DNA from: Chitinophaga pinensis
GTDB lineage: Bacteria; Bacteroidota; Bacteroidia; UKL13-3
Length of the DNA: 41,192 nt
Assembly (NCBI GenBank): GCA_945898275.1
Contig: CAMDHZ010000026.1
Location: 1-41,192, forward strand
Direction of reading: 5' to 3'
Below the pieces are notes generated by a model that saw only the letters and a list, made by a program, of their open reading frames with translations, was not told the origin of the DNA and did no database searches. Numbering within the stretch: position 1 is the stretch's first letter; each line of letters opens with the position of its first letter. The position numbers were made by a program, and so were the translations under genes. Shown one piece after another: positions 1,348 through 40,310 of the stretch.

Positions 1348-2313
1348 TCATTCTTCCCTTCCAAAAAAGGGTTTTACTGGTGCAATTTCAATTGAATCTT
1401 GTAAAAACAAGGGTGTTTCAAGTAAGTTCCATTGGTCAATTTTTGGCTGCCCTGCATCCACCCAGGCTGTGTACCAATAAGAAGCTACAGCCATAACAGC
1501 TGCTTGCATCCTTTGCTCTACAATGCCTTCAAGTTTCTGATGGTAGGCAGTTGAAATTCTTTTTGAGTAAACTTTTTGTGAACTATTATTTTTTTGCTCA
1601 TACCCAAATTTTTGGTCTTCTGGCGTTTCGGTTTGAACCAATTTTTCAGTTGCAAACACCATTGGAACATAAAAAAAACTTCCTGAAACTGCTTGCCAAG
1701 CTGAGGCTAAAGGATTTTCAATATAATTGGCTTTGCCCACAAAAAATGTATAAGTATCAAAAAACAGCTCAGGCAACCTCGATTCAAAAAAACCATGAAT
1801 ACCATGCTGTCCGCTCATTTGACCATTATAGTTTTCTGTTGTATGCAATGGCACATGGGCATCGCCAGCATAATGCCCTAATTCGGCTGAAAGTTTGAGA
1901 ACTCTCCCAACATCATGTTGTTCAAAGGCTGTTGTGAGTTTTCTCATCATCCATTGTATGTTCCAAGGAACTATCCCATAGGCATGAATGGTATCTTTAC
2001 CCAACATTTCAATAGCATCTTTATATTTCATTGGGATGGTATCAATGGGTAGCGCCTTTTCGTAATGGTCTATGTCTATATAGTGTTTTACATCCTCTCC
2101 TTCTACCAAATACCTCCTCTTATCTGGGTCTACTGCATGTTCAGAAAGGTATTCTATGTTTCTTTTGTAAAATCCAAACATCTCTTCTGGCAAAGAGAAT
2201 ACTGCCAATCTGTTGATTTGCTTATGCGCAAAAAATCCCCAAGCCGCAGCCTTTTCGGGTAATGCAAAAAAAATAAAAAGGCAAATGCCAAATTGAAATT
2301 TACTAAAATTCAT
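1348..2313 (-). CDS. Secreted S1/P1-type nuclease or zinc-dependent phospholipase C
   Basis: A signal peptide of about 23 residues ends at AAA, leaving Trp as the likely first mature residue (AWGFFAHKQINR). In S1/P1 nucleases and zinc-dependent phospholipases C the N-terminal Trp is itself a zinc ligand. Further ligand motifs follow: HYIDIDHY, then ELGHYAGDAHVPLH near residue 150, then HGIHGFFE. These are the trinuclear-zinc signature of the fold. The substrate, single-stranded nucleic acid or phospholipid, cannot be told from sequence. The start is placed at Met 2313, because it begins a clean signal peptide. An in-frame ATG at 2340 would add nine residues that cover a GGTTTGAACC repeat. Confidence 0.85.
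   Translation of the reverse strand: MNFSKFQFGICLFIFFALPEKAAAWGFFAHKQINRLAVFSLPEEMFGFYKRNIEYLSEHAVDPDKRRYLVEGEDVKHYIDIDHYEKALPIDTIPMKYKDAIEMLGKDTIHAYGIVPWNIQWMMRKLTTAFEQHDVGRVLKLSAELGHYAGDAHVPLHTTENYNGQMSGQHGIHGFFESRLPELFFDTYTFFVGKANYIENPLASAWQAVSGSFFYVPMVFATEKLVQTETPEDQKFGYEQKNNSSQKVYSKRISTAYHQKLEGIVEQRMQAAVMAVASYWYTAWVDAGQPKIDQWNLLETPLFLQDSIEIAPVKPFFGREE
1630..1639. repeat. Iterated palindrome GGTTTGAACC, copy 1
   Basis: Exact copy inside the S1/P1-type gene, where it is read as part of LVQTET. The extended form is CGGTTTGAACCAA. Confidence 0.8.
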
Positions 2314-2328
2314 CTTGCAATTAGTTAT

Positions 2329-2338
2329 GGTTTGAACC
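2329..2338. repeat. Iterated palindrome GGTTTGAACC, copy 2
   Basis: Exact copy just upstream of the preferred start of the S1/P1-type gene and 23 bases before the end of the helicase gene. It is probably non-coding. Confidence 0.8.
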
Positions 2339-2360
2339 AATATGCAAGCATGCCTTAAAA

Positions 2361-3698: not shown

Positions 3699-3767
3699 AA
3701 TTCAATTTAATTAAGTGTGTGAAGGTAGTTTAGATATACTCAATCACAAAATAGAAGTAGATTTTGC

Positions 3768-4739
3768 TTAAACAAAAACTACAAGTGCAGAAAGCAATAA
3801 CAATTGAACTACAAAGATAAATAATCCAAATATGATTCCCTTTTTGCCTGAATTAAACAACTTTTTAAAACTAACTTTAAGTCCTATTGCAGCCATAGCT
3901 ATGGTTAAAATAACTTTACCACCTGTTTCAAAAACATCCAAAATCACTTTAGGTATTGGAAATAGAGATGTTAAAATTGTAATGCCAATGAAACTCCATA
4001 AATACCAAGGAAGATTGAAAGAATTGCCTTTTGAATTGCCTTTATTAACCAAATAATTAAAAAATAATAAGGCAGGAGAAAGTAAGGCTACTCTAGCCAG
4101 TTTTATAGTAATGGCTGCTAATCCTACCTCAGAACCCATCGAATATCCAGCCCCAGCAACATTACCTACGGAATGCAATGAACCTCCAATTAAAAAGCCC
4201 ATTTGCGTTTGGTTCAAACCAAAATTTACCAAAACCAATGGAAGCACTATCATCCCTAAACTACCAAATAAGTTAACTACTGCCATAGAAATTGCAATAT
4301 CATCTTTGTTTTCTGTAGTTGAAGGTGCCAAAGCTGCAATAGCTGAGCTGCCACAAATTGCTGTTCCAAACCCAACTAACCATCCTGAAGTCCCTGGGCA
4401 TTTAAATTTTTTGGCTAAATAATATGTTAATAAAAGAATAACTAAAACAACCAGTCCAATCAGGCTAAAACTCTTCCATCCAAGGCTTGCAATGTTTGAA
4501 TAATTAATACTAAAGGCTAAAAACAGTATCGACAACTCTAACATTTTACTGCTCGTAAAACCAATTCCAGATTGAAAAGCATCTGGTAATGTTATAAAAT
4601 TTCCAAGTACCATACCTAATAATAGGGCTAACAAAATGCTATTGAAAAAGGATGGTAAAAATGCCGAAGAGAAATACGCTATAAGGCCAATGCTTATGGA
4701 TAAAACTATTCCTTTTATTTCTTTTTGAAGCAAATTCAT
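3768..4739 (-). CDS. YeiH/UPF0324 family putative sulfate exporter
   Basis: A polytopic inner-membrane protein of 323 residues with about ten hydrophobic segments. The conserved core GFGTAICGSSAIAALAP near residue 125 and the SLHSVGNVAGAG segment near 185 are typical of the YeiH family (PF03601). Family members are annotated as putative sulfate exporters on limited evidence, so the substrate here is not established. It stands alone between the helicase and tRNA-Leu on the same strand, and the tRNA terminator ends about 30 bases before its start codon. One codon group (GLNQTQ) carries the GGTTTGAACC repeat. Confidence 0.85.
   Translation of the reverse strand: MNLLQKEIKGIVLSISIGLIAYFSSAFLPSFFNSILLALLLGMVLGNFITLPDAFQSGIGFTSSKMLELSILFLAFSINYSNIASLGWKSFSLIGLVVLVILLLTYYLAKKFKCPGTSGWLVGFGTAICGSSAIAALAPSTTENKDDIAISMAVVNLFGSLGMIVLPLVLVNFGLNQTQMGFLIGGSLHSVGNVAGAGYSMGSEVGLAAITIKLARVALLSPALLFFNYLVNKGNSKGNSFNLPWYLWSFIGITILTSLFPIPKVILDVFETGGKVILTIAMAAIGLKVSFKKLFNSGKKGIIFGLFIFVVQLLLLSALVVFV
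4211..4220. repeat. Iterated palindrome GGTTCAAACC, copy 3
   Basis: Exact copy within the yeiH-like gene, extended symmetrically to TTTGGTTCAAACCAAA. On the coding strand it is read as GLNQ. Confidence 0.8.
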
Positions 4740-4767
4740 GAAGCTAAATTAGTTTAGCAATATCAGT

Positions 4768-4952: not shown

Positions 4953-7268
4953 TTATTCTACTACAATTTCATCAGCAAACAACCATGCTCCTTGCCCTTC
5001 TCCAGGGTGTCCCGGAGGACAAATTCCAATATTCTTTGCTTTAATCTTGATAAACTTTGCCTTAACAGCTTTTAATGAAATTCCAAATTGTTGGGTTATA
5101 GGATTGGCCTCTACCATTGGTGTATTGTTATTAGTAATTATTACTTCCGACCATTTGATGCCATCTAAAGAATAAGAAAACTCCACTTGCTGTGGTGCAA
5201 ATACCCAAGCCTTATAGAAGTGAAGAAAGTTGATATAAATGCTATTAACATCAGTAACCTGAGGAAGCTCCATGGTTAGCGATAGATCAGATTTATTGAT
5301 TGAATGCCAGCTGCTGCGAGTTGCCAATGGTCCAAAGATGCCATTTACCAGAGTGCTTTCACCTTCTGCTGGATAGATTTTACTCACAGGTTTATCATAA
5401 GTTATTTTTGAACCAATTCCCTTATGCAAAACATACTTTTGTTCACTTGGAAAAATGCTTAATTGATGTTTGTTTCTATAAAGCCATGCTTTTATAGTAC
5501 CACTAGAATCAATTGAAATAGTATCTTTATAAGGAGTATTGGTTGTTTTGCCAGTTAAACTATAAATAATATTCGCATTTGGAATTTCTGATTTAAGTAT
5601 CGCTTTCAATTTATTTTGATGCACAAATGTTTGAATGTCTACTTTAAAATTTCCTTTGCAATAATTGAGTCCCATTTCTGCAAACCTCATTTGATGTGCT
5701 TCAATTCTTGGATAAAACTCCAACCAGTTTCGTGTGGCCTTTGGCGACCATAGCACCTCGGCCATTGCAGGCATTCTTGGCAATATCATATACATCACAT
5801 GATTAAAACTAGACATGTATTCCGTCCAAACATTGGCTTGGGCTCCCAAAACAAAATGACTTAAAGAATCACCTAATTCGGCAGGAATTGGTTCATAATC
5901 ATACACGCGTTTTAGCGAGTTAAAACCTCCAATGGCTTTGGGCTCTGTTTCTGGGTCGGCTTGGTAATGATCAAAATAGCATGGCACTCCGGGGGTCATA
6001 ATTACTTCGTGTTGCTGTTTGGCGGCGGCTACGCCGCCGCTTTCTCCGCGCCAACTCATTACAACTGCATCACTTGCTAATCCTCCCTCTAGTATTTCAT
6101 CCCATCCTATCATTTTCTTACCATTAGCTTTTATAAACTTACCTATACGCTTCACAAAATAACTTTGTAATTCTAACTCATCTTTCAATTGCTCGTCTTT
6201 GATTCTTTTCTGACAAGCTGCGCATTCTTTCCAAGGTTCCTTTTCTACCTCATCTCCTCCAATGTGAAAATATTTTGAAGGAAATAAAGGCATCACCTCT
6301 GAAATAACATCGGTTAAAAACCTAAAGGTTTCTTCTTTGCCAGCACAATAATTAGAAGACTTACCTATGTAATCACCACCTGTTAAAGGCAATTGCATTT
6401 CTCCTTTGCAACTAAGAAAAGGATAAGCAGCTATTGCCGCAGCGCTATGCCCCGGCAATTCAATTTCAGGAACAACAGTTATCATTCTTGCAGCGGCATA
6501 AGCAACTATTTCCTTCACTTGCTCTTGGGTATAATAACCGCCATAATTTGCAATTTCTCCTAGTTTGGCCGCTGGCCTATCATTAAAATGCCATGCCCTC
6601 CTATCTACTCTCCAAGCGCCTGTTTCAGTAAGTTTGGGATACTTCTTAATTTCAATGCGCCAGCCTTGATCGTCTGTTAAATGCCAATGAAAAGTATTCA
6701 TTTTATACATTGCCATAAGGTCTAAATATTGCTTCACTTGGTCTACAGTAAAGAAATGTCTCACTACGTCTAAATGCATGCCACGCCAAGAAAATCTAGG
6801 ATAATCAACAATACTTATTTTTGGTAAAACTAATGCACAATTACTTTTAGAGGCAGGCAATAACTGCAGTAAAGTTTGGAAACCATATTGAATTCCAATT
6901 GCAGTATTAGCTTCAATATAAATGCCATTCGAATCAATTGTTAAGTGATAAGCCTCGGGATGATTGCTTGCAGTTAATGCAGTAATATTTACGTGAATAT
7001 AATTATGTTTTGCCCTTCCCTTTTTTAGTTTTATGCCACTTATAGCTTCAATACTCGATTTAAAAACAGCAATGCTTCTCCTTAAGGAATCATTGGCACC
7101 TTTAACCACCAATTTGGTGCTTTCGTTAATTTGAAAAACATTATTAATCCCAAAATCAACTAAATCTACAGGTTTCGGAATGATGTTTACAGCATTTTGG
7201 GCAAATAACTGATGTTGGTTCAAACCATATCCAACACAAAAAATTAGTAACACTTTTAAAATCTTCAT
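4953..7268 (-). CDS. Beta-N-acetylhexosaminidase, glycoside hydrolase family 20
   Basis: An exported exo-hydrolase that removes terminal N-acetylglucosamine or N-acetylgalactosamine from glycans. Of its 771 residues, 1-24 form a signal peptide ending LFAQ. Residues 25-150 are the GH20b N-terminal domain, and about 155-500 the catalytic barrel. The barrel holds RGMHLDVVRHFF, HWHLTDDQGWR and the catalytic Asp-Glu pair in HIGGDEVEKEPW (D339, E340). The last 130 residues form a discoidin-like, probably carbohydrate-binding, beta domain (FYKAWVFAPQQVEFSYSLDG). I see no type IX C-terminal sorting domain, so it is likely periplasmic or lost to the medium by another route. It is monocistronic. Confidence 0.94.
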   Translation of the reverse strand: MKILKVLLIFCVGYGLNQHQLFAQNAVNIIPKPVDLVDFGINNVFQINESTKLVVKGANDSLRRSIAVFKSSIEAISGIKLKKGRAKHNYIHVNITALTASNHPEAYHLTIDSNGIYIEANTAIGIQYGFQTLLQLLPASKSNCALVLPKISIVDYPRFSWRGMHLDVVRHFFTVDQVKQYLDLMAMYKMNTFHWHLTDDQGWRIEIKKYPKLTETGAWRVDRRAWHFNDRPAAKLGEIANYGGYYTQEQVKEIVAYAAARMITVVPEIELPGHSAAAIAAYPFLSCKGEMQLPLTGGDYIGKSSNYCAGKEETFRFLTDVISEVMPLFPSKYFHIGGDEVEKEPWKECAACQKRIKDEQLKDELELQSYFVKRIGKFIKANGKKMIGWDEILEGGLASDAVVMSWRGESGGVAAAKQQHEVIMTPGVPCYFDHYQADPETEPKAIGGFNSLKRVYDYEPIPAELGDSLSHFVLGAQANVWTEYMSSFNHVMYMILPRMPAMAEVLWSPKATRNWLEFYPRIEAHQMRFAEMGLNYCKGNFKVDIQTFVHQNKLKAILKSEIPNANIIYSLTGKTTNTPYKDTISIDSSGTIKAWLYRNKHQLSIFPSEQKYVLHKGIGSKITYDKPVSKIYPAEGESTLVNGIFGPLATRSSWHSINKSDLSLTMELPQVTDVNSIYINFLHFYKAWVFAPQQVEFSYSLDGIKWSEVIITNNNTPMVEANPITQQFGISLKAVKAKFIKIKAKNIGICPPGHPGEGQGAWLFADEIVVE
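7217..7226. repeat. Iterated palindrome GGTTCAAACC, copy 4
   Basis: Exact copy inside the signal-peptide coding region of the hexosaminidase. On the coding strand it is read as GLNQ. Confidence 0.8.
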
Positions 7269-8198: not shown

Positions 8199-8993
8199 TT
8201 ATACAATTTGTCTTATGTTTCTCAATATGTGCGTATGTTTCTTTTTTTCAACATTAAAGATCCCATAACTATCTAAAGCATCAATTCTTACCTTGCCAGC
8301 AGCATGAATAATTTTATTATCTCCAATAGCCATTCCTACGTGTGTTATTTTTTCAGCTTCATCCCCAAAAAAAAGCAAATCACCTGCAAGAATTTCTTCC
8401 AAAAAAGTTTTACTTTTACCTATCGCTGCTTGTTGCCATGCGTCTCTTGGTAACTGAATACCCATTGTTTTATACAAAACTTGGGTAAATCCAGAACAAT
8501 CTATTCCAAATGCGCTTTTGCCTCCCCATAAATAAGGAACGTTTAAAAACTGCATTGCTAATTTTAAAACATCACTCATTGTTGAGAAATTTTCAATTTT
8601 AGTTTCGGTTTGAACCAAATATCGTATGCCGTTTAGCCTAAAATGAAACTGCTGTTCTTCTAAATATAAATCATACACAATTGCAGCAGTTGGTAAAAGA
8701 ACATTTTCATTTTTCTCCAAATTGAGCGCTTTAACAAAAGGAAAATTATTTATAACAAAAGGAAAATTGTTTAATAACTTACTCGTTAATGGGAGTTCAA
8801 GCAAAGGTTCAAATTGTAAATGATTAATCCAACCCTTGTATTTGTCTGATTGATTTTCTACAAAAAACCATTCTTCCCTCTCTTCAAGGATGTTATAAAT
8901 CTCTCCAAATAACAATTGAGTAACCATTTCACTTTTGGAACTTGGTTCAGACCGTAAAGGCAATAAACTTAAGGAACAAATGCCTTGTTTCAT
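8199..8993 (-). CDS. NlpC/P60 (C40) cysteine peptidase with SH3-like domain
   Basis: A probable cell-wall endopeptidase cutting gamma-D-glutamyl bonds in peptidoglycan stem peptides. An SH3b-like N-terminal region (about residues 5-75, LPLRSEPSSKSEMVTQLL) precedes the C40 domain. That domain shows the catalytic Cys in VPYLWGGKSAFGIDCSGFTQ, a GDLLFFG segment and the catalytic His in ITHVGMAIGDNKIIHAAG. The start is set at 8993 (MKQGICSLSLL); a longer in-frame start at 9065 would overlap the divergent HPt gene. No clear signal peptide is visible with this start. 61 bases separate it from the HPt start codon. Confidence 0.88.
   Translation of the reverse strand: MKQGICSLSLLPLRSEPSSKSEMVTQLLFGEIYNILEEREEWFFVENQSDKYKGWINHLQFEPLLELPLTSKLLNNFPFVINNFPFVKALNLEKNENVLLPTAAIVYDLYLEEQQFHFRLNGIRYLVQTETKIENFSTMSDVLKLAMQFLNVPYLWGGKSAFGIDCSGFTQVLYKTMGIQLPRDAWQQAAIGKSKTFLEEILAGDLLFFGDEAEKITHVGMAIGDNKIIHAAGKVRIDALDSYGIFNVEKKKHTHILRNIRQIV
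8607..8616. repeat. Iterated palindrome GGTTTGAACC, copy 5
   Basis: Exact copy inside the NlpC/P60 gene, read as LVQTET, the same peptide as copy 1 in an unrelated protein. A one-mismatch variant (GGTTCAGACC) lies at 8944-8953 in the same gene. Confidence 0.8.
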
Positions 8994-9054
8994 TGTGCGA
9001 ATGTTTTGCGCAAGTAACAAGTTTTTTTTGTATAGTTGTACTGAATTTATCATT

Positions 9055-13824: not shown

Positions 13825-15110
13825 TTTGCTGCGTATATCCAGACATTTTTACCAGAAAGCTTTAGTTGTTCGGCTGCGGTCTTGGCTTTGTCTAGACTGA
13901 CCTTTTTAACATAAGCAACCAAATGAAATGGATATTGTTCTGGTTTAACGGAAACAGCGTCTTTATAGCTATTTTTTCTTAATTTGAGGGTTAAATTTTT
14001 TGCATTGTCTTCTTCCTTAAAAGCACCAGCAATAACATAAAACCCAGTTGAAATATTATTTATTGAGGCATCCACATTGACAATTTCAATTTCCTCATCT
14101 TCTATAAGCAATGGTTGGCTCTCAATTTTTTGAGATACCACTTCTTTTTGTTTAATAACCTCGTTAGTATGATTTTCTTGTACTATTATCGATTGTGGTT
14201 CTACTTTAGTAATTTCTGTTTGAACCAAATCATAAACACAGTAGTCTATGCTATCAAAATAAAATGAGTCTTTATGAAAGGTTAATGCAACATGCATAGG
14301 CAATTGCGTTAAATCTTCTAGTACTATACTTTCTTTAGAAATTGGCTTCTCTTCAGGCAGAATTGAATCAACTTTTAAAGATTCACTCACTGTACTTTCA
14401 ATAACTTCTCCAGTCTTTCCAAAAACACCCATGGTGGCAACTTGGGTTTTTAAATGATCAACTGGTCCGCTGTATAAATACAAACCTAGATTTACCAATA
14501 AAATCAGAATTAAAACGGTTGTAATAACTGGAAACAATTTGCTGCTTTTTCTTTCATTTACACTTTCAGAAATTTTAGCTTGATCCAACATCACTTTTAA
14601 CTCCTTTAAAGCAGATTCGCGCATCTGAGATAATGCCGCATCTTCTTCTTCTTCAAGGCTAACATCCATTCGTTTAACCTTATGCAAATTTGCAGCAAAA
14701 TGCACAGCATCGAGTCCGAATGATGATTTTTCAAAACTTAAATTCTTTGTAGGTTCAAAATCCAATTCACCTAAAATATTAAATTTAAAATAGCCAAAAC
14801 CTTCTATTTCAAATCGCTTACCTGGCAGTATAGCTGCTCTTAAAGAAAGTCCAAATAAATTTAACTTATCCTCCAGGTAAATAATATCACTATAATCCTT
14901 TAAAAAAACAATGAAGTCAGGCGTAGTTTCAAAATCTCCTTGAGAAAAATTAATACTTTTTTTCTTTGGTGAAACAATTTTAGAAATTGGATCAACCGTA
15001 AAATCAGAAACCTCACAAACAAACCTACCTATACCTGCAACACATAATTCGTTATGGCTAAACAAATAGTGTTTAATAAAGTAGGCAATTTTTAATTCTG
15101 ACTCAGTCAC
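13821..15110 (-). CDS. HU-CCDC81/SPOR membrane protein
   Basis: A 429-residue bitopic protein. Residues 1-150 contain two regions matching the bacterial CCDC81-type HU domains (IGRFVCEV and FEIEGFGYFKFN), placed in the cytoplasm. One membrane segment lies at about 193-213 (LFPVITTVLILILLVNLGLY). A linker follows, then a C-terminal SPOR domain from about residue 350 (GFYVIAGAFKEEDNAKNL), which binds denuded peptidoglycan at division sites. The architecture is Bacteroidota-specific. The HU-like fold could bind DNA or serve as a cytoplasmic protein contact. It lies downstream of gldN beyond a strong terminator, so it is a separate transcription unit. Confidence 0.86.
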   Translation of the reverse strand: MTESELKIAYFIKHYLFSHNELCVAGIGRFVCEVSDFTVDPISKIVSPKKKSINFSQGDFETTPDFIVFLKDYSDIIYLEDKLNLFGLSLRAAILPGKRFEIEGFGYFKFNILGELDFEPTKNLSFEKSSFGLDAVHFAANLHKVKRMDVSLEEEEDAALSQMRESALKELKVMLDQAKISESVNERKSSKLFPVITTVLILILLVNLGLYLYSGPVDHLKTQVATMGVFGKTGEVIESTVSESLKVDSILPEEKPISKESIVLEDLTQLPMHVALTFHKDSFYFDSIDYCVYDLVQTEITKVEPQSIIVQENHTNEVIKQKEVVSQKIESQPLLIEDEEIEIVNVDASINNISTGFYVIAGAFKEEDNAKNLTLKLRKNSYKDAVSVKPEQYPFHLVAYVKKVSLDKAKTAAEQLKLSGKNVWIYAAN

Positions 15111-25508: not shown

Positions 25509-26396
25509 CTACCTTAATTGATAGGTTAATCCAAGCAGCACACTGTCTTCCAAATTTCGCTCATTTATTTGCAATTGACTGTTAGTTGCATTCAAGCTTA
25601 ACACGTTATAATACTTTGCATAAGATTGATTGAATACGCAAGTTCCCATGCTATCTATCAATAACAATTCTGATTGCGCTTGAATTCTAGGCGCTAATGC
25701 TAAAACAGCAAGGTATTTAAAAGAGCTAATTGGTAAAACATAAATTTGTTCTATGGGCTGAATAAGCAATTTTGAATTAAATGAAAATCCATTGGCAGGA
25801 TTTATAAACTTAAGTTTTTGATTGGAATAACTAATTTGAATTGAATCAAAAATTTGGGAAGGGATGCCTTCAACATTTGTAAAAACAGAATCTATTTGCA
25901 CTTCTTCTAAAGCAGCAAGATTAATTGATTTTGGCTTTGGTGGTGGCGTGTTGTAGCTTAAAACACGGTCAAATGTTGTTTGTATGGGTTGAACCAAAAG
26001 CGTAAATATTAGGGCTAAGGAAATTATCAATAGCGAACTGTTCATCAGTTTATAGGTATAAGGTTCTGCTACTTTAACCGCTGAGGTATGGATTATTAAT
26101 GCTATTAAATATCCCGTAATCGCTGCCAAAATGTTTATAGGAAAGAACCACCAAACGACGCTATAAAAACCATCATTTATATTTAAAAAGCTATTCATGG
26201 CATTTAACACTACAAAGGAAATTGCCGCAATGGAGTAGAAAATAAATGCGTAAAAAAACAGTGAATAGGATTTAACAGAGGGGTGTTTAGCAAACCTCAC
26301 GCGCATTGCAAAAAAGAAAAACAAAATACTGATAATGGTAGCTGCTAACAACCAAATATTAACATGTTGCAATAAGGGCCAGATAAACCTATTCAT
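25509..26396 (-). CDS. Membrane protein of unknown function
   Basis: I do not recognise a family. With the start at 26396 (MNRFIWPLLQHVN) it has 295 residues. Four hydrophobic helices lie in the first 150 residues, the last being SLLIISLALIFTLLV, followed by an extracytoplasmic region of about 140 residues rich in short strands. The proline stretch TPPPKPKS begins that region. It overlaps the end of the M23 peptidase gene by 8 bases, so the two are probably translationally coupled. A longer in-frame start (26459) would place over 60 more bases inside the upstream gene and lacks a membrane-protein N-terminus. Confidence 0.7.
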   Translation of the reverse strand: MNRFIWPLLQHVNIWLLAATIISILFFFFAMRVRFAKHPSVKSYSLFFYAFIFYSIAAISFVVLNAMNSFLNINDGFYSVVWWFFPINILAAITGYLIALIIHTSAVKVAEPYTYKLMNSSLLIISLALIFTLLVQPIQTTFDRVLSYNTPPPKPKSINLAALEEVQIDSVFTNVEGIPSQIFDSIQISYSNQKLKFINPANGFSFNSKLLIQPIEQIYVLPISSFKYLAVLALAPRIQAQSELLLIDSMGTCVFNQSYAKYYNVLSLNATNSQLQINERNLEDSVLLGLTYQLR

Positions 26397-29041: not shown

Positions 29042-29686
29042 TCAAAAGGAAGTTATCTCAATAAGCTGATTATCTGCAATTACCCAAATTCTATCATTGG
29101 ATTGCTTTTCAAAATTTGCCAAGCCTGTGAGTCCACCAAAAGCAGGTAGTATGGCTCGGTTTGAACCAATAACGAAGCAAGGTAATCTTAATACCTGTTT
29201 TGCTTTTCCTCTAAGCGTGAATCCTGGATGGATATGACCACTAATTACATATTCAGTTTCATCCCCTCGTGGTTCATGTATTAAACAAATACCATGGCTT
29301 ACGTATTTATGTGCGGTTTCTAAGTTGGGTAATTTTAATTGAAAAGCTGGCATAATATCATGATTTCCGCGCAACAAGATGAATCTAATAAAAACATATT
29401 GGTTCAAAAAATCTTTGAACCAATCCCATTCGGAGTTGAGATGAGAATGAAATAAGTCGCCCACCACAAAAATCTTTTTGGGCTTATACATCGAAATTAA
29501 AGATTCAAGCTGAAATAGGTCGAACTTACCTGCTTCGGCGGGAAATGGAATGCCATTTTTTCGAAAATGTGTTGCTTTTCCTAAATGAATATCACTTAGT
29601 ACCAAAGCAGCTTCGTTGCTCCAAAACATTGCTTTTTGCGGAATTAAAATGAACTCATTTTCATTTAGCAGTATTTTTTCGGACAA
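29042..29686 (-). CDS. pdeM: Ligase-associated DNA damage response endonuclease PdeM
   Basis: A calcineurin-type metallophosphoesterase of 214 residues. Metal-binding motifs appear in order: SDIHLGK (Asp 32, His 34), VVGDLFHS, LRGNHD and SGHIHPG. The short core and the THFRKNGIPFP segment match PdeM, which in other bacteria is encoded with a DNA ligase, an exonuclease (Lhr-associated) and a helicase. None of these partners is present here; it instead leads the permease/M23 operon. It is divergent from the nucleoid protein gene, with 45 bases between start codons. Confidence 0.87.
   Translation of the reverse strand: MSEKILLNENEFILIPQKAMFWSNEAALVLSDIHLGKATHFRKNGIPFPAEAGKFDLFQLESLISMYKPKKIFVVGDLFHSHLNSEWDWFKDFLNQYVFIRFILLRGNHDIMPAFQLKLPNLETAHKYVSHGICLIHEPRGDETEYVISGHIHPGFTLRGKAKQVLRLPCFVIGSNRAILPAFGGLTGLANFEKQSNDRIWVIADNQLIEITSF
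29158..29167. repeat. Iterated palindrome GGTTTGAACC, copy 7
   Basis: Exact copy in pdeM, read as GSN on the coding strand. Confidence 0.8.
29399..29423. repeat. Inverted pair of TTGGTTCAA half-motifs
   Basis: TTGGTTCAAA (29399-29408) and TTTGAACCAA (29414-29423) form a perfect 10-bp stem with a 5-base loop inside pdeM. Both arms are copies of the core of the iterated palindrome. Confidence 0.75.
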
Positions 29687-29731: not shown

Positions 29732-30781
29732 ATGTTAGATTTTTCTCTTTGTTCAATTAAACATTTATCTGTTCACCAAACAGGGAATAAGCAAAATGGC
29801 GAACCATTGTTGCTTTCTAAGCAGTCAGTTGCTTTATTAGATGAGGATTTAGAAGCCCATCTTCTATCCTATTTTTTAAAACCTTTTCAAACGCAAGAAT
29901 ATTATCACCTTAGCTTTAGCAATGATGATCACGCTTTAAATCCAGTATTTAATTATGCCAAAGATTTGTTTGAACGCCCTGATTCCTTTCATATCCAAAG
30001 CATTCATTTAGCAAAGCATTTGTATGAAATTGCAATTCACCCCAACATTTTGGCAGGCGATTTTTATGTTTGCAGTTTCGATGGTATGCAGTATCAAGGC
30101 AACTTGGTTCAAGCCATTGGCATCTTTAAAGCAGAAACTAAAGACCATTTTTTAAAGGTTAGCAGAATTGGTCAGGATTATGACTTAGCGGTGGAGAGCG
30201 GCATTGCTATTGATAAACTTGATAAAGGCTGCTTGATCATAAATGTGGAAGAAGAAAAAGGTTTTCGAGTTTGTGTAACTGATAAAACCAATAAAAGCAG
30301 TGAGGCAGCCTATTGGAAAGACCTTTATTTAAAGATTAAACCTTGCTCGGATGCTTACCATTTAACGCAAAATTTCTTGCATGTAACCAAAGACTTTTTA
30401 ACCAAACAAGTTCCTAAAGAGTTTGAAGTAAGCAGAACAGACCAAATTGATTTATTGAATCGTTCCGTAGCTTTTTTTAAGGAAAACGAAACCTTTAATG
30501 AGCATTTATTTACAGAACAAGTTTTTGAAGGAAATGAAGGTTTAGTTACTTCTTTTAAAGATTATAAAAACTCGGTTCAAACCGAATATGAAATAGAACT
30601 TAAAGACGGTTTTGACATTTCTGAACAAGCAGTAAAAAAACAAGCAAAGGTTTTTAAGAGCATTTTGAAACTGGATAAGAACTTTCATATTTATATTCAT
30701 GGCAATAAAAATATGATTGAAAAAGGCATAGAGTCTGACGGCAGAAAGTTTTATAAAATCTATTATAACGAAGAACATTGA
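29732..30781 (+). CDS. Nucleoid-associated protein (NdpA/YejK family)
   Basis: 349 residues with the family start SIKHLSVHQTGNK, the central FYVCSFDGMQYQGNLVQAIGIFK strand region and the C-terminal DGFDISEQAVKKQAKVFKSILKLDKNFHIYI. In Escherichia coli the homologue YejK is a nucleoid-bound protein of little-known role that interacts with topoisomerase IV. It may organise the chromosome here too. It carries an exact GGTTCAAACC repeat. It ends in a TTGA overlap with the pseudouridine synthase gene. Confidence 0.84.
   Translation: MLDFSLCSIKHLSVHQTGNKQNGEPLLLSKQSVALLDEDLEAHLLSYFLKPFQTQEYYHLSFSNDDHALNPVFNYAKDLFERPDSFHIQSIHLAKHLYEIAIHPNILAGDFYVCSFDGMQYQGNLVQAIGIFKAETKDHFLKVSRIGQDYDLAVESGIAIDKLDKGCLIINVEEEKGFRVCVTDKTNKSSEAAYWKDLYLKIKPCSDAYHLTQNFLHVTKDFLTKQVPKEFEVSRTDQIDLLNRSVAFFKENETFNEHLFTEQVFEGNEGLVTSFKDYKNSVQTEYEIELKDGFDISEQAVKKQAKVFKSILKLDKNFHIYIHGNKNMIEKGIESDGRKFYKIYYNEEH
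30574..30583. repeat. Iterated palindrome GGTTCAAACC, copy 8
   Basis: Exact copy in the nucleoid-protein gene, extended symmetrically to TCGGTTCAAACCGA and read as SVQTE. Confidence 0.8.
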
Positions 30782-31485
30782 GTTTTAGAAACAAGCTTCA
30801 AAACCTATTGGTAAAAAAAGTCGCACTAAGCCATAAGCAAGCAAAATTAGCCATAGAGAATGGGGAAGTACTTTTGAATGGCCAACATGCAGAAACAAAC
30901 TGTGTGATATTAGAAACTGATGAAGTTATTTATAATAGTCAAATAATTCAGTCCTCAAAAAGCTATAAGTATGTTAAATATTATAAGCCTTTGGGTATAG
31001 AATGCAGCATGCGATTAGACGATAAAGATGCTTTAGGTTTGAACCTACCTGATGCTTTAAAGGGTTTGCAAATTTGCGGAAGGCTAGACAAAGCCTCTGA
31101 GGGACTTTTGATTTTAACAGATGATGGTAAGTTTTTAAACAAGATTACTAGCCCAGGAAAATCGGTTTGGAAAACATATTTGGTTTGCCTAGAAAGTGAA
31201 GTAAATGATACACTTATTAGGATTTTTGAGCAAGGCATTTTGCTTAATGGATATCAGACATTACCGGCTAAAATAAGGAAAATTAACAGCCATACCATAG
31301 AAGTTAAATTACAAGAAGGACGGAACAAACAAATACGGCGGATGTGCTTTGAAGCAGGTAATTTTGTAACCAAGCTTATACGAACAAGTATTGGAGAAAT
31401 TGAACTTAAAGCATTAAAATCAGGAGTTTTTGAAAACTTAACATTTAAAGAGTTAGAATTTGTCAAAAAAATTGATTCTATTTGA
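30778..31485 (+). CDS. Pseudouridine synthase, RsuA/RluB/E/F family
   Basis: Converts a uridine of ribosomal RNA to pseudouridine. The 235 residues comprise an S4 RNA-binding domain at 1-60 (LLVKKVALSHKQAKLAIENG) and a catalytic domain with the Asp in GRLDKASEGLLILTDDG. RKINSHTIEVKLQEGRNKQIRRMC is the family end motif. The S4-plus-short-core layout fits RluF or RsuA; the target base is undetermined. The start is TTG at 30778, overlapping the upstream stop as TTGA, which indicates coupled translation. No ATG exists before the S4 domain in frame. Confidence 0.9.
   Translation: MSFRNKLQNLLVKKVALSHKQAKLAIENGEVLLNGQHAETNCVILETDEVIYNSQIIQSSKSYKYVKYYKPLGIECSMRLDDKDALGLNLPDALKGLQICGRLDKASEGLLILTDDGKFLNKITSPGKSVWKTYLVCLESEVNDTLIRIFEQGILLNGYQTLPAKIRKINSHTIEVKLQEGRNKQIRRMCFEAGNFVTKLIRTSIGEIELKALKSGVFENLTFKELEFVKKIDSI
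31036..31045. repeat. Iterated palindrome GGTTTGAACC, copy 9
   Basis: Exact copy in the pseudouridine synthase gene, extended to TAGGTTTGAACCTA and read as LGLNL, a third distinct peptide reading. Confidence 0.8.
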
Positions 31486-31528: not shown

Positions 31529-32092
31529 ATGTTAAAAAGAGCGCTTATTATCGCAGCCATATTTGTTGTTGTTATTGTTATTTTTTTCAATTGGTTCAAA
31601 AAGGATACAAAAAAACATAGTCCATCTGCAACAGCTGAATATGCAGAAGGTCCATTAAAAATAAAGATTGATTATTGTCGTCCCTCAGCAAAGGGCAGAA
31701 TTATTTTTGGAGATAAAGCCACAGAAGCCTTGCAACCATATGGAGAATATTGGCGATTAGGAGCAAATGAGGCCACTGTTTTTGAGACAAACTCTCCTAT
31801 TTTCTTTAACGATAAAAAGTTAGATGCAGGCAAATATTCTTTATATGCTTACCCAGGAGAAAAGGTTTGGACCATTTGTGTAAATAGCGATTGGGACCGC
31901 TGGGGTGCTCAGGAAGCAGATAAGTCAAAAGATGTTTTGAGAACAGAAATTGAAGCAATTAATGATGCGCCTATTAAAGAGCAATTTGAAATCACGTTAA
32001 CACCAATTGATTCAAATAATACAGTAGCATTAAATTTCCATTGGGACAAAACTTCTGTTACTGTGCTGCTAAAAAACGCTTTAGGAGAATAG
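31529..32092 (+). CDS. DUF2911 membrane-anchored protein
   Basis: 187 residues with an N-terminal membrane anchor (about 5-22, IIAAIFVVVIVIFFNWF) and a DUF2911 domain. Diagnostic segments are IDYCRPSAKGRIIFG, YGEYWRLGANEAT, LDAGKYSLYAYPG and WGAQEADKSKDVLRTE. The family is common in Bacteroidota; its function is not established. It is predicted to sit on the periplasmic face of the inner membrane. Its 3' end overlaps the convergent glycosyltransferase gene by 12 bases. Confidence 0.85.
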   Translation: MLKRALIIAAIFVVVIVIFFNWFKKDTKKHSPSATAEYAEGPLKIKIDYCRPSAKGRIIFGDKATEALQPYGEYWRLGANEATVFETNSPIFFNDKKLDAGKYSLYAYPGEKVWTICVNSDWDRWGAQEADKSKDVLRTEIEAINDAPIKEQFEITLTPIDSNNTVALNFHWDKTSVTVLLKNALGE

Positions 32093-32821
32093 TCTAAAAT
32101 TAACTACTCCCATCTTCTGCAATCTAAACATTATACTCGTTCTAAGCACGCCTAGTCCATAGATTGAACTGCGTTTAAAGTTAATGGAAGATGCTTCTGG
32201 AAAGTATTTTGTTGGACAAGTTACTTCTGCTATTTCAAAACCTTTTAAACAGATTTGAGCAGTTATTTCATTGTCAAACACAAAATCATCACTGCATTTA
32301 TCAAAATTTACAGTTTTAAGTACATTTGCATCGAAAGCTCTATAACCTGTGTGGTATTCAGATAGTTTTTGGCCCATTAAAATGTTTTGGAACAAGGTTA
32401 GCATTCTGTTAAAAATGTATTTATAAATAGGCATACCACCTTTTAGGGCGCCTTTACCTAGAATTCTTGAACCAAACACAACAGGATAAACTTCATTTGC
32501 TATGATGCTACTCATGGCTAAAATTAGTTTTGGAGTATACTGGTAATCTGGATGTAACATAATTACAATATCTCCATTAAGTTCTAAGGCTTTGTTGTAA
32601 CATGTCTTTTGATTTCCTCCATAGCCTTTGTTTTGCTCATGCCTAATCACATGCTGAATACCAATACTTTTGGCAAGATCTGAAGTTTCATCCCGGCTAG
32701 CATCATCCACTAAAATCACCTCGTCTACAATTTCCATTGGAATCTCGGCATAAGTTTTTTCCAATGTTCTAGCTGCATTATAAGCTGGTAATACAACAAT
32801 TATCTTTTTTCCGTTTAGCAT
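32081..32821 (-). CDS. Family 2 glycosyltransferase (dolichol/polyprenyl-phosphate type)
   Basis: A GT-A fold transferase of 246 residues: VVLPAYNAARTLEKT at the start, VDEVILVDDASRDET with the nucleotide-binding Asp pair, and IVIMLHPDYQY in the place of the DxD metal site. GSRILGKGALKGGMPIYKYIFNR follows, then the HTGYRAF segment found in polyprenyl-phosphate mannosyl- and glucosyltransferase-like enzymes. No membrane helix is evident. Donor and acceptor are unknown. It is last in a minus-strand series, 17 bases after the antiporter gene. Confidence 0.88.
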   Translation of the reverse strand: MLNGKKIIVVLPAYNAARTLEKTYAEIPMEIVDEVILVDDASRDETSDLAKSIGIQHVIRHEQNKGYGGNQKTCYNKALELNGDIVIMLHPDYQYTPKLILAMSSIIANEVYPVVFGSRILGKGALKGGMPIYKYIFNRMLTLFQNILMGQKLSEYHTGYRAFDANVLKTVNFDKCSDDFVFDNEITAQICLKGFEIAEVTCPTKYFPEASSINFKRSSIYGLGVLRTSIMFRLQKMGVVNFRLFS

Positions 32822-34589: not shown

Positions 34590-34610
34590 AACAGAAGTTA
34601 CAGAAAATTT

Positions 34611-34620
34611 GGTTCAAACC
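34611..34620. repeat. Iterated palindrome GGTTCAAACC, copy 10
   Basis: Exact copy in the 34-base gap between the EamA gene and yraN, extended to the perfect-arm form TTTGGTTCAAACCAAA. It is non-coding. Confidence 0.85.
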
Positions 34621-34623
34621 AAA

Positions 34624-35523: not shown

Positions 35524-35564
35524 AAATGTACAGTTTGAAACAATATTTATTAAGTTCGCAGTAA

Positions 35565-36902
35565 ATGAAAACAATACTTATTAAAAATGCACTCTTGGTG
35601 AATGAGGGTGAACAATTTCATGCTGATGTATTTATAAAAGGTGCTTTTATTGAAAAAATTGAAAGGCAAGGGATAAATATGCCTGCCGACCAAGTAATTG
35701 ACGCGATCGGAAAAATCTTAATTCCTGGTTTAATTGACGACCAAGTGCATTTTAGGGAGCCAGGTTTAACGCATAAAGGAGATTTATATACTGAACCAAA
35801 AGCAGCAGTTGCTGGCGGGGTTACCTCTTATATGGAAATGCCAAACACCTCCCCTAGTGCCGTAACCATTGAATTGTTAGAGCAGAAATATTCGCGCGCA
35901 GCAGAAGTTAGTCTTGCTAATTATAGCTTCTTTATGGGTACTACCAACCATAATATTGAAGAACTTCTTAGAGTGGATGAAACCAAAATCTGTGGGGTAA
36001 AGATTTTTATGGGCTCAAGTACGGGCGATATGTTGGTGGATGACCCTTTGGCTTTAGAAAGAGTTTTTAAAGAAGTTAAAACTATTATTGCCACACATTG
36101 CGAGGACGACCCAATGGTAAAGGCCAATCAAGCTGCGGTAATTGCAGCAAATGGAGAAGCTATTGACGCCAGTTGGCACCCAAAAATTAGAAATGAAGAA
36201 GCCTGCTATTTGTCGTCTAGCTTTGCAGTTGAATTAGCAAAAAAGCACAATACGCGTTTACATATCTTGCACATTAGTACAGCAAAAGAACTAGACTTAT
36301 TTAGAAATGATATTCCATTGGTTCAAAAACGCATAACTGCCGAAGCTTGTACACATCATCTTTGGTTTAGCGATGAAGACTATGCAGAAAAAGGGAATTT
36401 TATAAAATGGAACCCAGCGGTAAAATCTTCAAAGCATAGAGAAGCAATTTTAAAAGCTGTAATTGATGGTAGAATTGATGTGCTGGCAACCGACCATGCG
36501 CCGCATACTTTGGAAGAAAAATCGCAAAGCTATTTAAAAGCGCCTTCGGGCGGACCTTTGGTTCAACACACCCTAAATGCCTTATTGCAACTTTACAAGA
36601 AAGGAAAAATAAGCCTAGAAAAAATTGTTGAAAAAGCCTGTCACAACCCAGCGATACTGTTTGAAATTGACCGCAGAGGATTTATCAAAGAAGGCTTTTT
36701 TGCAGATTTAGTATTGGTAGATTTGAACCAAAAATACACCGTTTCTAAAAGTAATATTTTATATAAGTGCGGCTGGAGCCCTTTTGAAGGAGTGCAATTT
36801 GACTCAGTTGTTACCCATACCTTAGTAAATGGAAATGTAGTTTACAAGGAAGGGAATTTTGATAAAAGCAATAAGGGTATGAGAATTCTATTTAACAGAT
36901 AA
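35565..36902 (+). CDS. pyrC: Dihydroorotase (class I type)
   Basis: Catalyses ring closure of carbamoyl aspartate to dihydroorotate in pyrimidine synthesis. 445 residues of amidohydrolase barrel. Visible are the metal-bridging Lys in GVKIFMGSS, the ATHCEDD and LHILHIST histidines, and the catalytic Asp in ATDHAPHT. The usual first ligand motif HxHxRxPG reads QVHFREPG, so one of the two His is replaced by Gln. The closing VVTHTLVNGNVVYKEG is normal for the family. The Gln form is, to my memory, shared by other Bacteroidota. No other pyr genes are adjacent. Confidence 0.9.
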   Translation: MKTILIKNALLVNEGEQFHADVFIKGAFIEKIERQGINMPADQVIDAIGKILIPGLIDDQVHFREPGLTHKGDLYTEPKAAVAGGVTSYMEMPNTSPSAVTIELLEQKYSRAAEVSLANYSFFMGTTNHNIEELLRVDETKICGVKIFMGSSTGDMLVDDPLALERVFKEVKTIIATHCEDDPMVKANQAAVIAANGEAIDASWHPKIRNEEACYLSSSFAVELAKKHNTRLHILHISTAKELDLFRNDIPLVQKRITAEACTHHLWFSDEDYAEKGNFIKWNPAVKSSKHREAILKAVIDGRIDVLATDHAPHTLEEKSQSYLKAPSGGPLVQHTLNALLQLYKKGKISLEKIVEKACHNPAILFEIDRRGFIKEGFFADLVLVDLNQKYTVSKSNILYKCGWSPFEGVQFDSVVTHTLVNGNVVYKEGNFDKSNKGMRILFNR

Positions 36903-36923
36903 TCGAACCTATATAAGCAAAAA

Positions 36924-36993: not shown

Positions 36994-37008
36994 CAAGCTA
37001 GTTAGTAA

Positions 37009-37584: not shown

Positions 37585-37607
37585 GTTGTTTTTATTTAGT
37601 TTATAGA

Positions 37608-38036: not shown

Positions 38037-38108
38037 GTGTTTTATAAATTGATTACAAACACATATACGAGAAAACAAAAAGAGTGGATTTAAAACCAGT
38101 AAAAAAAA

Positions 38109-38924: not shown

Positions 38925-39484
38925 CTTATTCCTCCTTTCTGTTTTTCATTAAATACACCTCTTAACTTTTGTATGGCTTGTCTTGCTCTTGTTTTGACTG
39001 TGCCTAAAGGGATTTCAAAATCTTTGGCAATTTCGGATTGCGTATACCCTTCAAAATACATTTTCTGAAGAATTTCCAATTGGTCTTTTGGCAATGCTTC
39101 AACAATCTTTTTCAACCCAATACCATCTGTATTGAAATCAGTTTGATATTGCTGATCAATTACATATACGGAATTTTCTATATCTTGGTTTTGAAGGCTG
39201 TTTCGTTCTTGTTTGCTTTTGAGTGCATCAATGGCTGTATTTCTAGCAATATTAAGCATCCAGGTATACAGTTTACCCTTTGAGGAATCATAGGAAGAGA
39301 AGTTGTTCCAAATTTTTACAAAACTCTCTTGGGTAATGTCTTCTGCTAATTCTCTATTGTTAACTATCTTCAGAATTGATCCAAAAATTGAGGCTGAATA
39401 ATTATTATACAATAAATTAAATGCAGCCTCAGTGCCGGTATTTAAAACCAGAATCAAATCTTCTTCTGAGATAAGTTTGCGCAT
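38921..39484 (-). CDS. ECF-family RNA polymerase sigma factor (SigK-like)
   Basis: A 187-residue group 4 sigma factor. Region 2 is seen in NRELAEDITQESFVKIWNNF and LYTWMLNIARNTAIDALKSKQ. Region 4 helix-turn-helix is in MYFEGYTQSEIAKDFEIPLGTVKTRARQAIQKL. There is no extra C-terminal domain. An RskA-type partner downstream places it with SigK-like ECFs. The start is ATG at 39484; TTG three bases earlier is less likely. It probably transcribes its own operon, including the globin. Confidence 0.93.
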   Translation of the reverse strand: MRKLISEEDLILVLNTGTEAAFNLLYNNYSASIFGSILKIVNNRELAEDITQESFVKIWNNFSSYDSSKGKLYTWMLNIARNTAIDALKSKQERNSLQNQDIENSVYVIDQQYQTDFNTDGIGLKKIVEALPKDQLEILQKMYFEGYTQSEIAKDFEIPLGTVKTRARQAIQKLRGVFNEKQKGGIS

Positions 39485-39523
39485 CAATTCTTAAAATATA
39501 GTTAGGCAATCTAAAGAAATTTA

Positions 39524-40240
39524 TTAAATAAGCATAGGCACTTCCATCAATAATATTTCGGCTTGATCCGACAAGGCTGTGACAGAGATTTCTGAAGTTT
39601 GTGACAGTCCGATGCCATCTCTTGAAGCTAAAACAGTTCCATTGATGTTCCAATCTCCAGAAAGTATAAAGGCATAGACACCATGTTGCTCACTTTTTAG
39701 GGTGTGTTTAACGCTAAAATCCTTATCAAACTTTCCAAGGTAGAATCTGGCATCTTGGTGAATCCAAACCGCATTGGGTGAAGGTTCGCTAGAAAGAACC
39801 AATTGTAAGTTGTTTTGTCTATCTGCAAGGTTTAAGGTTTTCTGGTCGTACCTTGGCGCAACATTGCGTTGGTTTGGAAAAACCCAAATTTGCAGGAATT
39901 TAGTTTGTTGGTCTTTATTACGATTGTATTCGCTATGAAAAATTCCTGTGCCGGCGCTCATCACTTGAATATCGCCCTGCTTAATCACAGCGGTATTACC
40001 CATAGAATCTTTGTGTTCTAAATCGCCTTCAAGCGGAATAGAAATTATTTCCATGTTATCATGCGGATGTTTGCCAAAGCCCATTGCCGCAGCAACAGTA
40101 TCATCATTTAAGACCCTTAATGCGCCAAAATGAACTCTTTCTGGGTTATGGTATGAACCAAAGCTGAAAGTATGAAAGGATTTTAACCAACCGAAATCTG
40201 CTTTTCCGCGCGTATCGGCTTTATGGATGATGGTATTCAT
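39524..40240 (-). CDS. Pirin family protein (YhhW-like)
   Basis: A bicupin of 238 residues. The N-terminal cupin carries the metal ligands in FGKHPHDNMEIISIPLEG and LEHKDSMG with later Glu, as in Escherichia coli YhhW, which has quercetin 2,3-dioxygenase activity. The segments GWLKSFHTFSFGSY and HFGALRVLNDD are typical. The physiological role is not clear. 70 bases separate it from the Crp/Fnr regulator upstream on the same strand, and that gap holds a TTGGTTCAA half-motif. Confidence 0.92.
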   Translation of the reverse strand: MNTIIHKADTRGKADFGWLKSFHTFSFGSYHNPERVHFGALRVLNDDTVAAAMGFGKHPHDNMEIISIPLEGDLEHKDSMGNTAVIKQGDIQVMSAGTGIFHSEYNRNKDQQTKFLQIWVFPNQRNVAPRYDQKTLNLADRQNNLQLVLSSEPSPNAVWIHQDARFYLGKFDKDFSVKHTLKSEQHGVYAFILSGDWNINGTVLASRDGIGLSQTSEISVTALSDQAEILLMEVPMLI

Positions 40241-40310
40241 ATTGATTTAATTTTGGTTCAAAACTAAACCATTAAAGTAAGCTAAACCTTAAATTAGATT
40301 AAGAAAGCGT

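Follow-up and report, generated by a model that had tools for sequence, protein, structure and literature searches.

The locus raises the question of why one short word recurs throughout the window, i.e. the whole stretch of 41,192 nucleotides analysed here, and whether something in the cell reads it. The sequence-only reading had counted ten exact copies of GGTTCAAACC/GGTTTGAACC and 21 copies of TTGGTTCAA/TTGAACCAA, and every one of them was recovered in its place. An order-3 Markov model of the window predicts 0.16 and 1.9 copies, respectively, so the excess is about 60-fold for the former and about 11-fold for the latter; the earlier expectations of 0.05 and 0.5 were somewhat low by this measure, but the large excess stands. 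An order-5 model of the window, which is itself fed by the word, gives 0.78 for GGTTCAAACC and 8.8 for TTGGTTCAA. As had been anticipated, the excess extends to the complete 3.52-Mb Bacteroidota genome, which contains 785 exact words (394 on the + and 391 on the - strand) as compared to 29 copies of the reversed word, and 1461 matches to TNGGNTCRRNCC as compared to 55 for the reversed control. The full word thus occurs about once per 2.4 kb. Chance or composition as its source is ruled out by the counts against the Markov expectation and the reversed word.

We note that the 10-mer seen at first is the most frequent version of a longer word with some degenerate positions, namely a pseudo-palindrome of 14 bp, approximately THGGNTC-RR-NCCRA, in which TNGGNT half-sites flank a central C-R; the form of this genome (G000) is THGGNTCAANCCRA. 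Positions within the word are strict, the spacing of the half-sites is operator-like, and the information in the flanks falls off near the edges of the word. Single mismatches at the core positions are not in excess in G000, whereas the right half does show such an excess.

There are 15 matches to TNGGNTCRRNCC in the window and they include all ten exact words. The form TTGGTTCAAACCGA is found at 1628..1641 (-) within ORF 1348-2340, at 8605..8618 (-) within ORF 8199-9065, at 25357..25370 (+) within the hemW ORF 24378-25508 and at 29156..29169 (-) within ORF 29042-29686; the last two are full sites in the relative G007 and half-sites in the relative G008. TTGGTTCAAACCAT occurs at 2327..2340 (-), at the TTG end of ORF 1348-2340 and possibly 5' of the real start, and at 7215..7228 (+) within ORF 4953-7268 (glycosyl hydrolase family 20). 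TTGGTTCAAACCAA lies at 4209..4222 (+) within ORF 3768-4739, which is on the opposite strand, and at 34609..34622 (+), a non-coding position with ORFs 34209-34589 and 34624-35574 on either side. The AG-type site TTGGTTCAGACCGT is at 8942..8955 (+) within ORF 8199-9065, TAGGTTCAAGCCTA at 24020..24033 (+) within ORF 22733-24361, and TCGGATCAAGCCGA at 39558..39571 (-) within ORF 39524-40240. Three sites are full in G008 and altered in G007, namely TTGGTTCAACCCAT at 25984..25997 (-; two mismatches), placed within ORF 25509-26459 by the ORF list though intergenic by a second gene caller, TTGGTTCAAGCCAT at 30104..30117 (+; three mismatches) within the NA37 gene 29732-30781, and TAGGTTCAAACCTA at 31034..31047 (-; one mismatch) within ORF 30778-31485 (pseudouridine synthase). 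The NA37 gene contains a second site, TCGGTTCAAACCGA, at 30572..30585 (+). In general, the location of the full word is mostly intragenic.

The remaining 11 copies of TTGGTTCAA in the window are half-sites. They lie at 20148..20156, 31591..31599, 36318..36326, 36558..36566 and 40253..40261 on the + strand, at 5408..5416, 14220..14228, 32467..32475 and 36723..36731 on the - strand, and as an inverted pair at 29399..29407 (+) and 29415..29423 (-). This class is over-represented and its conservation is no higher than that of the flanks. The TNGGNTCAA half-sites were rejected as functional sites on the same ground, in the comparison with G007.

The coding copies were compared to a null in which every protein and the codon usage of each gene were kept. 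In 441 kb, 83 copies were observed as opposed to 7.6 ± 2.5 in the shuffled sequences (200 shuffles, maximum 14). The word is read mainly in a few frames, LVQT, GLNQ and GSNR, with RFEP/WFEP and RFKP besides, so the VQT, GSN and GLN readings reported earlier are indeed present. Nevertheless, peptide selection is not the explanation, as had been argued, and the codon-pair use of Val-Gln-Thr, Gly-Ser-Asn and Gly-Leu-Asn, the proposed escape, fails as a full account by the same figures. The synonymous positions under the word are frozen as well: 193 of 218 codons are kept, where 117 are expected (z = 11.2), which bears out the synonymous-site conservation for which the sequence-only reading had called. 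The conserved footprint is about 14 bp and covers both halves. A codon or peptide cause is excluded by these two results.

Conservation in place points the same way. In a relative at 94% DNA identity, 37 of 41 aligned exact words are identical, as compared to 60.6% of all 10-mers; at 79% identity the corresponding values are 27 of 37 and 12.6%. Of 73 sites, 52 have the full motif in each of the three species, vs. 21% of 62 shuffled-word sites. This shows that, between near species, selection acting on the nucleotides themselves maintains the word at its positions. Alignments to more distant members of the genus reveal turnover, with 8 sites shared and 23 one-sided, and at 3 of the 8 shared sites the dialect (see below) has switched in place. 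An origin of the copies in this genome from a longer mobile repeat was rejected since flank information and conservation end close to the word.

The distribution of the word was investigated in a family sample of 62 genomes. Enrichment is 5.8- to 46-fold in each of the 19 genus members, and the remaining 43 genomes, from 13 further genera, do not exceed 2.45-fold. Among 395 genomes sampled across the phylum, the present one has 785 exact words and the runner-up 45. Across the species of the genus the number of sites ranges from hundreds to over two thousand, with a roughly 7-fold spread in density; G009 and G002 are the two word-poorest genomes. Genome counts, the codon-preserving null, orthologous and synonymous conservation, and strong enrichment in a single genus of those compared together support the conclusion that the iterated word is under nucleotide-level selection and is not a codon or peptide effect.

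The species differ in the two central purines, whereas the TNGGNTC core is constant. AA makes up 92% in G000, GA 90% in G012 (21 strand hits) and AG 55% in G017 (20 strand hits); some other species are mixed. In G012 the GA dialect forms a perfect palindrome, TNGGNTCGANCCNA, from which single-base deviations most often affect the first and last base. The AA dialect of this genome has a CA centre and is not a perfect palindrome, and palindromic GA forms in G000 are near background (9 matches vs. 4 reversed).

No replication-strand bias was found on the 220-kb contig C1 (47 + and 46 -), where GC skew is negative in 10 of 11 segments. The orientation relative to genes is biased, with 95 same-strand and 61 opposite sites. 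The sites are spread throughout both sampled contigs, are far more than tens, and are irregularly spaced (CV 0.89 for 75 sites and 1.64 for 10 sites). Islands particular to G000 hold 1 site in 26 kb as compared to 75 in 138 kb (one 164-kb span); in G008 the difference, 3 sites in 11 kb vs. 93 in 172 kb, is not significant (p = 0.29). An inverted word pair sits between convergent genes.

Taken as a recognition word, the earlier proposal holds for the selected, iterated word itself on counts, null and conservation; a matching reader is a strong inference, since the species have dialects and the positions are strict. The reader would be a sequence-specific DNA-binding protein of the genus, and this putative protein and its sites would change together. 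We suggest, with a probability of roughly 0.4, that the word serves as a self-DNA label recognised during uptake or recombination. Word-bearing DNA would be preferentially imported or retained during natural transformation, probably through a Bacteroidota-type machinery of ComEC with surface and TonB-linked parts and no type IV pilus. Such biased import would preserve good copies and remove broken ones, and it could allow a new dialect to spread genome-wide. In full, i.e. as a genus-wide, coevolving 14-bp self-recognition word with dialects, pilus-free uptake or recombination and a probably dimeric reader, the proposal is tentative and a shade less probable.

The counts, the restriction to one genus, the conservation and the synonymous test count for the self-mark reading, as do the dialects with their constant core, the in-place dialect switches and the lack of replication-strand bias. 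The island depletion in G000, ComEC (present in 61 of 62 family genomes) and the inverted pair between convergent genes, an arrangement typical of known uptake words, are further points in favour. So is the literature on Riemerella, a naturally competent genus that has ComEC, DprA and ComF as well as proteins whose function is unknown (PMC8459023), and of which R. columbina favours its own DNA (PMC7965970). DUF5689, a Riemerella domain, was rejected as a marker as it is patchy (10 of 19 genus genomes and 18 of 43 others) and does not track the word. Several observations count against uptake. A receptor was not found, and we know of no case of transformation in this genus. The gene-orientation bias is not predicted by it; a pseudo-palindromic site is more in keeping with a DNA-binding dimer than with a receptor of the pilin kind; and decay and repair should leave single mismatches in the core, which are not in excess in G000. 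The non-significant islands of G008, the turnover at distance, the patchy DUF5689 and the rarity of the pilus/type II ATPase PF00437 weigh in the same direction. This ATPase, the sole pilus family searched, has no match in this genome and is above the cut-off in 1 of 62 family genomes, as a partial match of 54 positions. As it is missing here, an uptake route of the Neisseria/Haemophilus type is unlikely.

DUS of Neisseriaceae are placed inside genes and in terminators. In the excerpt of PMC3630211, they reach thousands of copies in some genomes, their dialects follow phylogeny round a constant core, and five other Neisseriaceae genomes are without an obvious DUS. The present word resembles them in its copy number, which runs to hundreds or thousands and lies far above expectation on either strand, and in the species dialects AA, GA and AG round an invariant TNGGNTC; it differs in belonging to another phylum, in being a 14-bp pseudo-palindrome, and in that the pilus ATPase was not found here. 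In common with the USS of Pasteurellaceae, it is iterated and, in this genome, combines a rigid core with a side that is A-rich and graded; it differs in that the core has partial symmetry, in that no excess of single core mismatches is seen in this genome, and, again, in that the pilus ATPase was not found.

If true, this would be to our knowledge the first DUS-type language in Bacteroidota; no title among the literature matches listed, mostly without subscription papers and bioRxiv, concerns this word. Few lineages (Neisseriaceae, Pasteurellaceae, cyanobacteria) are known to have iterated, selected words that form dialects, and a case in Bacteroidota without the pilus ATPase would offer a fresh system for reader discovery. 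It would test whether chromosome structure, repair linked to methylation or biased uptake gives rise to such words, and would hint at what restricts gene flow between species. With two low-density species and clear dialect switches, the reader can be searched for through comparative genomics.

An alternative that we consider unlikely is a HIP1-like palindrome with a solitary DNA methylase, in which the word or its core would be methylated and the copies would arise and persist through methylation-linked repair or regulation. HIP1 and the alternate HIPs of cyanobacteria are also highly iterated and (near-)palindromic with lineage versions; the excerpt of PMC4390886 describes deviations at the outer bases, as in the perfectly palindromic GA dialect, and replacement palindromes in some cyanobacteria. 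The present word is, however, longer, interrupted, less GC-rich and, in this genome, non-palindromic, with GA forms near background. Usual methylase sites are shorter than a 14-bp interrupted word. A methylase motif regex had no match in 441 kb (about 12%) of this genome, a slight point against, and on stretches of 12 relatives gave one DPPF match, in G009.

Similarly doubtful is a genus-specific dimeric chromosome organiser (nucleoid, segregation, topology) for which each copy is useful. The two half-sites with their operator-like spacing, the footprint over both halves and the even use of the replication strands would suit it, but the site numbers, the 7-fold density differences and changes of dialect in whole sets are hard to reach by site-by-site selection, and the spacing is irregular. 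Sites of MatP, Noc, SlmA and ParB are tens of palindromes in one chromosome region; copies of this word exceed such numbers by far and occur all along both sampled contigs of the draft genome. The nucleoid-associated NA37 of the window is present in 18 of 19 genus genomes and missing in word-poor G009; 29 of the 43 genomes from other genera, which are without the word, also have it, as does word-poor G002. NA37 was therefore rejected as the genus-specific reader.

A Chi-like word steering the recombination nucleases of the genus is very improbable: the word is short, over-represented and concentrated in the core DNA of this genome at a density near that of E. coli Chi, yet, in contrast to known Chi sites, it is interrupted and of greater length, and it is degenerate at fixed positions. 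A strand-biased Chi or KOPS word is unsupported by the even strand counts, though any strand bias would be less marked for a near-palindrome.

That nothing reads the word, the excess stemming from codon pairs, peptide repeats, mobile repeats or composition, could draw on the few dominant frames and on a short repeat cassette with two word copies in G005, but is already refuted, unless the tests share an error, by the codon-preserving shuffles, the frozen synonymous codons, the confinement of information and conservation to the word, and its absence from sister genera.

As to a phage-borne word, no word-rich virus was seen among the 80 loci listed of at least 120 viral-contig stretches with TTGGTTCAAACCGA; each has one match, which is chance-like. 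A survey of seven other genera, 100 kb each, gave no dispersed word of comparable strength. ACCACAGGCA has 19 copies in G034 (0.3 expected), 17 of them within one 7.7-kb stretch, i.e. a local cluster. Clustering is also seen for AGGGGTCG (G024) and GGGGTCAAT (G031). TTAGGGTC in G037 is dispersed yet rare, with 9 copies.

The word is real and under selection, and it is carried throughout the genus in several dialects, i.e. forms that differ in the two central purines. All ten copies of GGTTCAAACC/GGTTTGAACC and 21 copies of the shorter core TTGGTTCAA/TTGAACCAA that the sequence-only reading had reported were found in the window exactly where it placed them. The enrichment extends to the whole source genome (G000; 3.52 Mb in 106 contigs, one of which, C26, is the window; rated 98% complete), where GGTTCAAACC occurs 785 times (394 on the plus and 391 on the minus strand) vs 29 occurrences of the reversed word. 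In a 441-kb sample of this genome (G+C 35.5%) the commonest 9- to 12-mers are fragments or variants of a single word: GGTTCAAACC has 102 copies vs 1.8 expected from an order-3 Markov model, TTGGTTCAAACC 60 vs 0.33 and GGTTCAAACCGA 49 vs 0.05. When the 102 copies of GGTTCAAACC are aligned, the information spans T(-2) to about A(+13), with little beyond. Judged by its genes for type IX secretion GldM and PorP/SprF, the genome is assigned to Bacteroidota; the closest GldM sequences come from metagenome-assembled genomes (e.g. JAIYCU010000012, 88%), and UKL13-3 (CP012155) has 58%.

The one-mismatch count that had been proposed gave a sharp spectrum for TTGGTTCAAACCG. Most positions are strict (T1, G3, G4, T6, C7, A8, A9, C11 and C12, with 0 to 3 copies per variant) and four are free or half-free, i.e. 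2 (T>A>C), 5 (any base), 10 (A>C>G) and 13 (G>A). The word is therefore T-H-GG-N-TC-A-A-V-CC-R-A, a C-A centre flanked by two TNGGNT half-sites. With a wider pattern, mismatches in the core (T1, G3, G4, T6, C7, A8) sum to 25 in G000 vs 24 for the reversed control, and those in the right half (A9, C11, C12, A14) number 12 to 51 vs 0 to 3. The sole enriched core change in three pooled relatives of the same genus (G008, G007 and G005) is A8 to G (16 vs 2), which is the GA dialect. Half-sites TNGGNTCAA without VCC number 250 in 441 kb, the reversed control for the whole TNGGNTCAA class being 77; their conservation does not exceed that of the flanks in the alignment of G000 with G007, and half-sites of this kind may be weak, newly formed or decaying ones. 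Two TTGGTTCAA half-sites lie inverted and 16 bp apart at 29399-29423 of the window, within the ORF 29042-29686.

Peptide selection had been discounted as the cause from the sequence alone, rightly so, and codon use does not explain the copies either: 83 are coding, vs 7.6 +/- 2.5 when the synonymous codons of each gene are shuffled. Another 19 of the 102 exact copies fall outside ORF calls, in 8% of the DNA, a soft excess since the simple gene caller misses some ORFs. The sample was aligned to G008 (167 kb at 94% identity) and G007 (151 kb at 79%); 61 and 65 of the 102 exact copies, respectively, were unaligned, mostly because they match parts not sampled. Of the aligned exact words, 37/41 are identical in G008 and 27/37 in G007; the baseline for all 10-mers is 60.6% and 12.6%, and a shuffled-word control gives 32/55 and 1/51. 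At TNGGNTCAAVCC sites compared with G007 column by column, conservation is 0.90 to 0.97 at fixed positions and falls to about 0.75 on either side of the word, which gives a footprint of about 14 bp. Conservation at synonymous sites, which the sequence-only reading had suggested looking for, was found in both relatives: among codons with a conserved amino acid and the third base inside the word, 193/218 are identical in G007 (117 expected) and 258/268 in G008 (227.5 expected). In the three-way comparison, which tallies palindromic sites on both strands, both relatives have the full word at 52/73 of the G000 sites, vs 21% of shuffled-word sites (n=62); at 37 aligned places the full word is missing from one or two of the three species.

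GGTTCAAACC is found in 19/19 genus genomes (46 to 1318 copies vs 6 to 37 for the reversed word), at 3 to 53 copies in 45 genomes from 13 other genera of the family, and at no more than 45 copies in 394 other sampled genomes of the phylum. A mild excess among the latter (20 to 45 vs <10 reversed; e.g. G240 45 vs 6, G343 33 vs 4) is chiefly seen in a distant family, f25, four genomes of which (G240, G343, G200, G252) have 31 to 45 vs 4 to 8, far under the genus level. The dialect-free form TNGGNTCRRNCC is enriched 5.8- to 46-fold in 19/19 genus genomes (289 to 2229 vs 24 to 95) and at most 2.45-fold in 43 genomes of other genera, the top being genus g3. The poorest genus members are G009 and G002.

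The AA dialect prevails in G000 (92%), G008, G007 and G005 (81%). G012 has GA in 90% of 21 strand hits, and its sites are perfect palindromes; GA shares are somewhat inflated since palindromic sites can match on both strands. AG leads in G017 (55% of 20), and G004, G011, G013 and G001 are mixed. A single C-to-T transition within the central CG, on one strand or the other, separates AA from GA. Since the GA form is near background in G000 (9 vs 4 reversed) and the AA form was matched once in the first 44 kb sampled of G012, each of these genomes discriminates between the two. In short alignments with genus members further away (70 to 81% identity), 23 sites are one-sided and 8 are shared, and at 3 of the 8 the dialect has changed while the site stayed where it was; word positions thus turn over at that distance. 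AA-rich genomes form two separate groups in a GldM tree, a one-gene, midpoint-rooted tree in which the genus is not one clade and G001 is a long branch.

Outside the genus, TTAGGGTC of G037 (L142-L146) has 9 dispersed copies in 100 kb vs 0.6 expected and contains the TNGGNTC core; it may be a distant dialect. Words of this kind in G024 and G031 turned out to be clustered locally, as are the 16 copies of ACCACAGGCA within 5.5 kb of G034, a genome of a sister genus (L135 5344-10840). In G005 a stretch of 5 kb has three near-identical occurrences of a short cassette of two inverted copies 28-29 bp apart (L151 11313-11430, 12861-12902 and 16209-16250), with another copy at L149 16574, as if the word rode on a small repeat; the L149 copy had no match in the phage collection.

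Within genes the full word prefers the coding strand (95 sites vs 61 on the opposite strand; p = 0.008), with 24 sites outside ORF calls; amino-acid tolerance may cause this preference. Spacing is near random (CV 0.89 for 75 sites on contig C1, 1.64 for 10 sites in part of the window). Gaps between convergent genes make up ~16% of intergenic bases and contain eight of these 24 non-ORF sites, and on contig C2 an inverted pair 16 bp apart between convergent genes is terminator-like. Along the C1 span aligned to G008 the core has 75 sites in 138 kb vs 1 in 26 kb of G000-specific DNA (p = 5e-5); the mirror test in G008 goes in the same direction (3 in 11 kb vs 93 in 172 kb) and is not significant (p = 0.29). 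Two C1 islands, 105853-118667 (12.8 kb) and 133524-139495 (6 kb; L014-L015), are without the word, and both are species-specific, i.e. unaligned to G008 and G007.

We consider a mark of self DNA for uptake or recombination the best explanation, with a probability of about 0.4, because it best accounts for dialects that change across the whole set of sites, for the differing densities of the species and for the island depletion in G000. A HIP-like iterated word is an unlikely reading, and we do not file the word with HIP1 since it is not a palindrome in G000. Sites that organise the chromosome are doubtful to the same degree; the nucleoid-associated protein gene NA37 (PF04245; window 29732-30781), with two word copies inside, occurs in 18/19 genus genomes, being missing in the word-poor G009, and is also present in the word-poor G002 and in 29/43 genomes of other genera. 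The palindrome geometry speaks for a dimeric cytoplasmic reader or a methylase, as does the lack of intermediates in the core. A Chi-like word is very improbable; replication-strand bias is absent, a 220-kb contig with negative GC skew in 10/11 segments having 47 + and 46 - sites.

As regards uptake, the inner-membrane channel of transformation is present, judging from ComEC, which does not discriminate since it is near universal (61/62 family genomes). The word is not filed as a DUS/USS because the pilus ATPase was not found: PF00437, the sole pilus family searched, has no match in G000, and among the 62 genomes only one 54-position match, outside G000, is above the cut-off; sub-cut-off matches (40/62 at E <= 0.001) are mostly one short stretch of an ~870-aa ORF. 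Among the matches listed for the word on both strands, and for Bacteroidota uptake words and neighbouring topics, no title concerns this word; the comparison covered titles and abstract openings, mostly without subscription papers or non-PMC bioRxiv preprints. In the same phylum, Riemerella is transformable by means of ComEC, DprA, ComF, RecA and some proteins of unknown function, including one with DUF5689 and an outer-membrane one with CarboxypepD_reg (PMC8459023), its TonB mutants are impaired in transformation (PMC8383284), and R. columbina prefers its own DNA, the authors' candidates being A/T-rich k-mers only (PMC7965970). In G011 a TonB-receptor-like CarboxypepD_reg gene is divergent from the gene for a DUF5689 protein that has a type IX sorting tail, with a 245-aa ORF between them, a pairing that is suggestive but may be common; DUF5689 was matched in 10/19 genus genomes and 18/43 others. 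In G017 a protein encoded ~750 bp upstream of recA (L342 2919-7201) has 824 aa and a type IX sorting tail.
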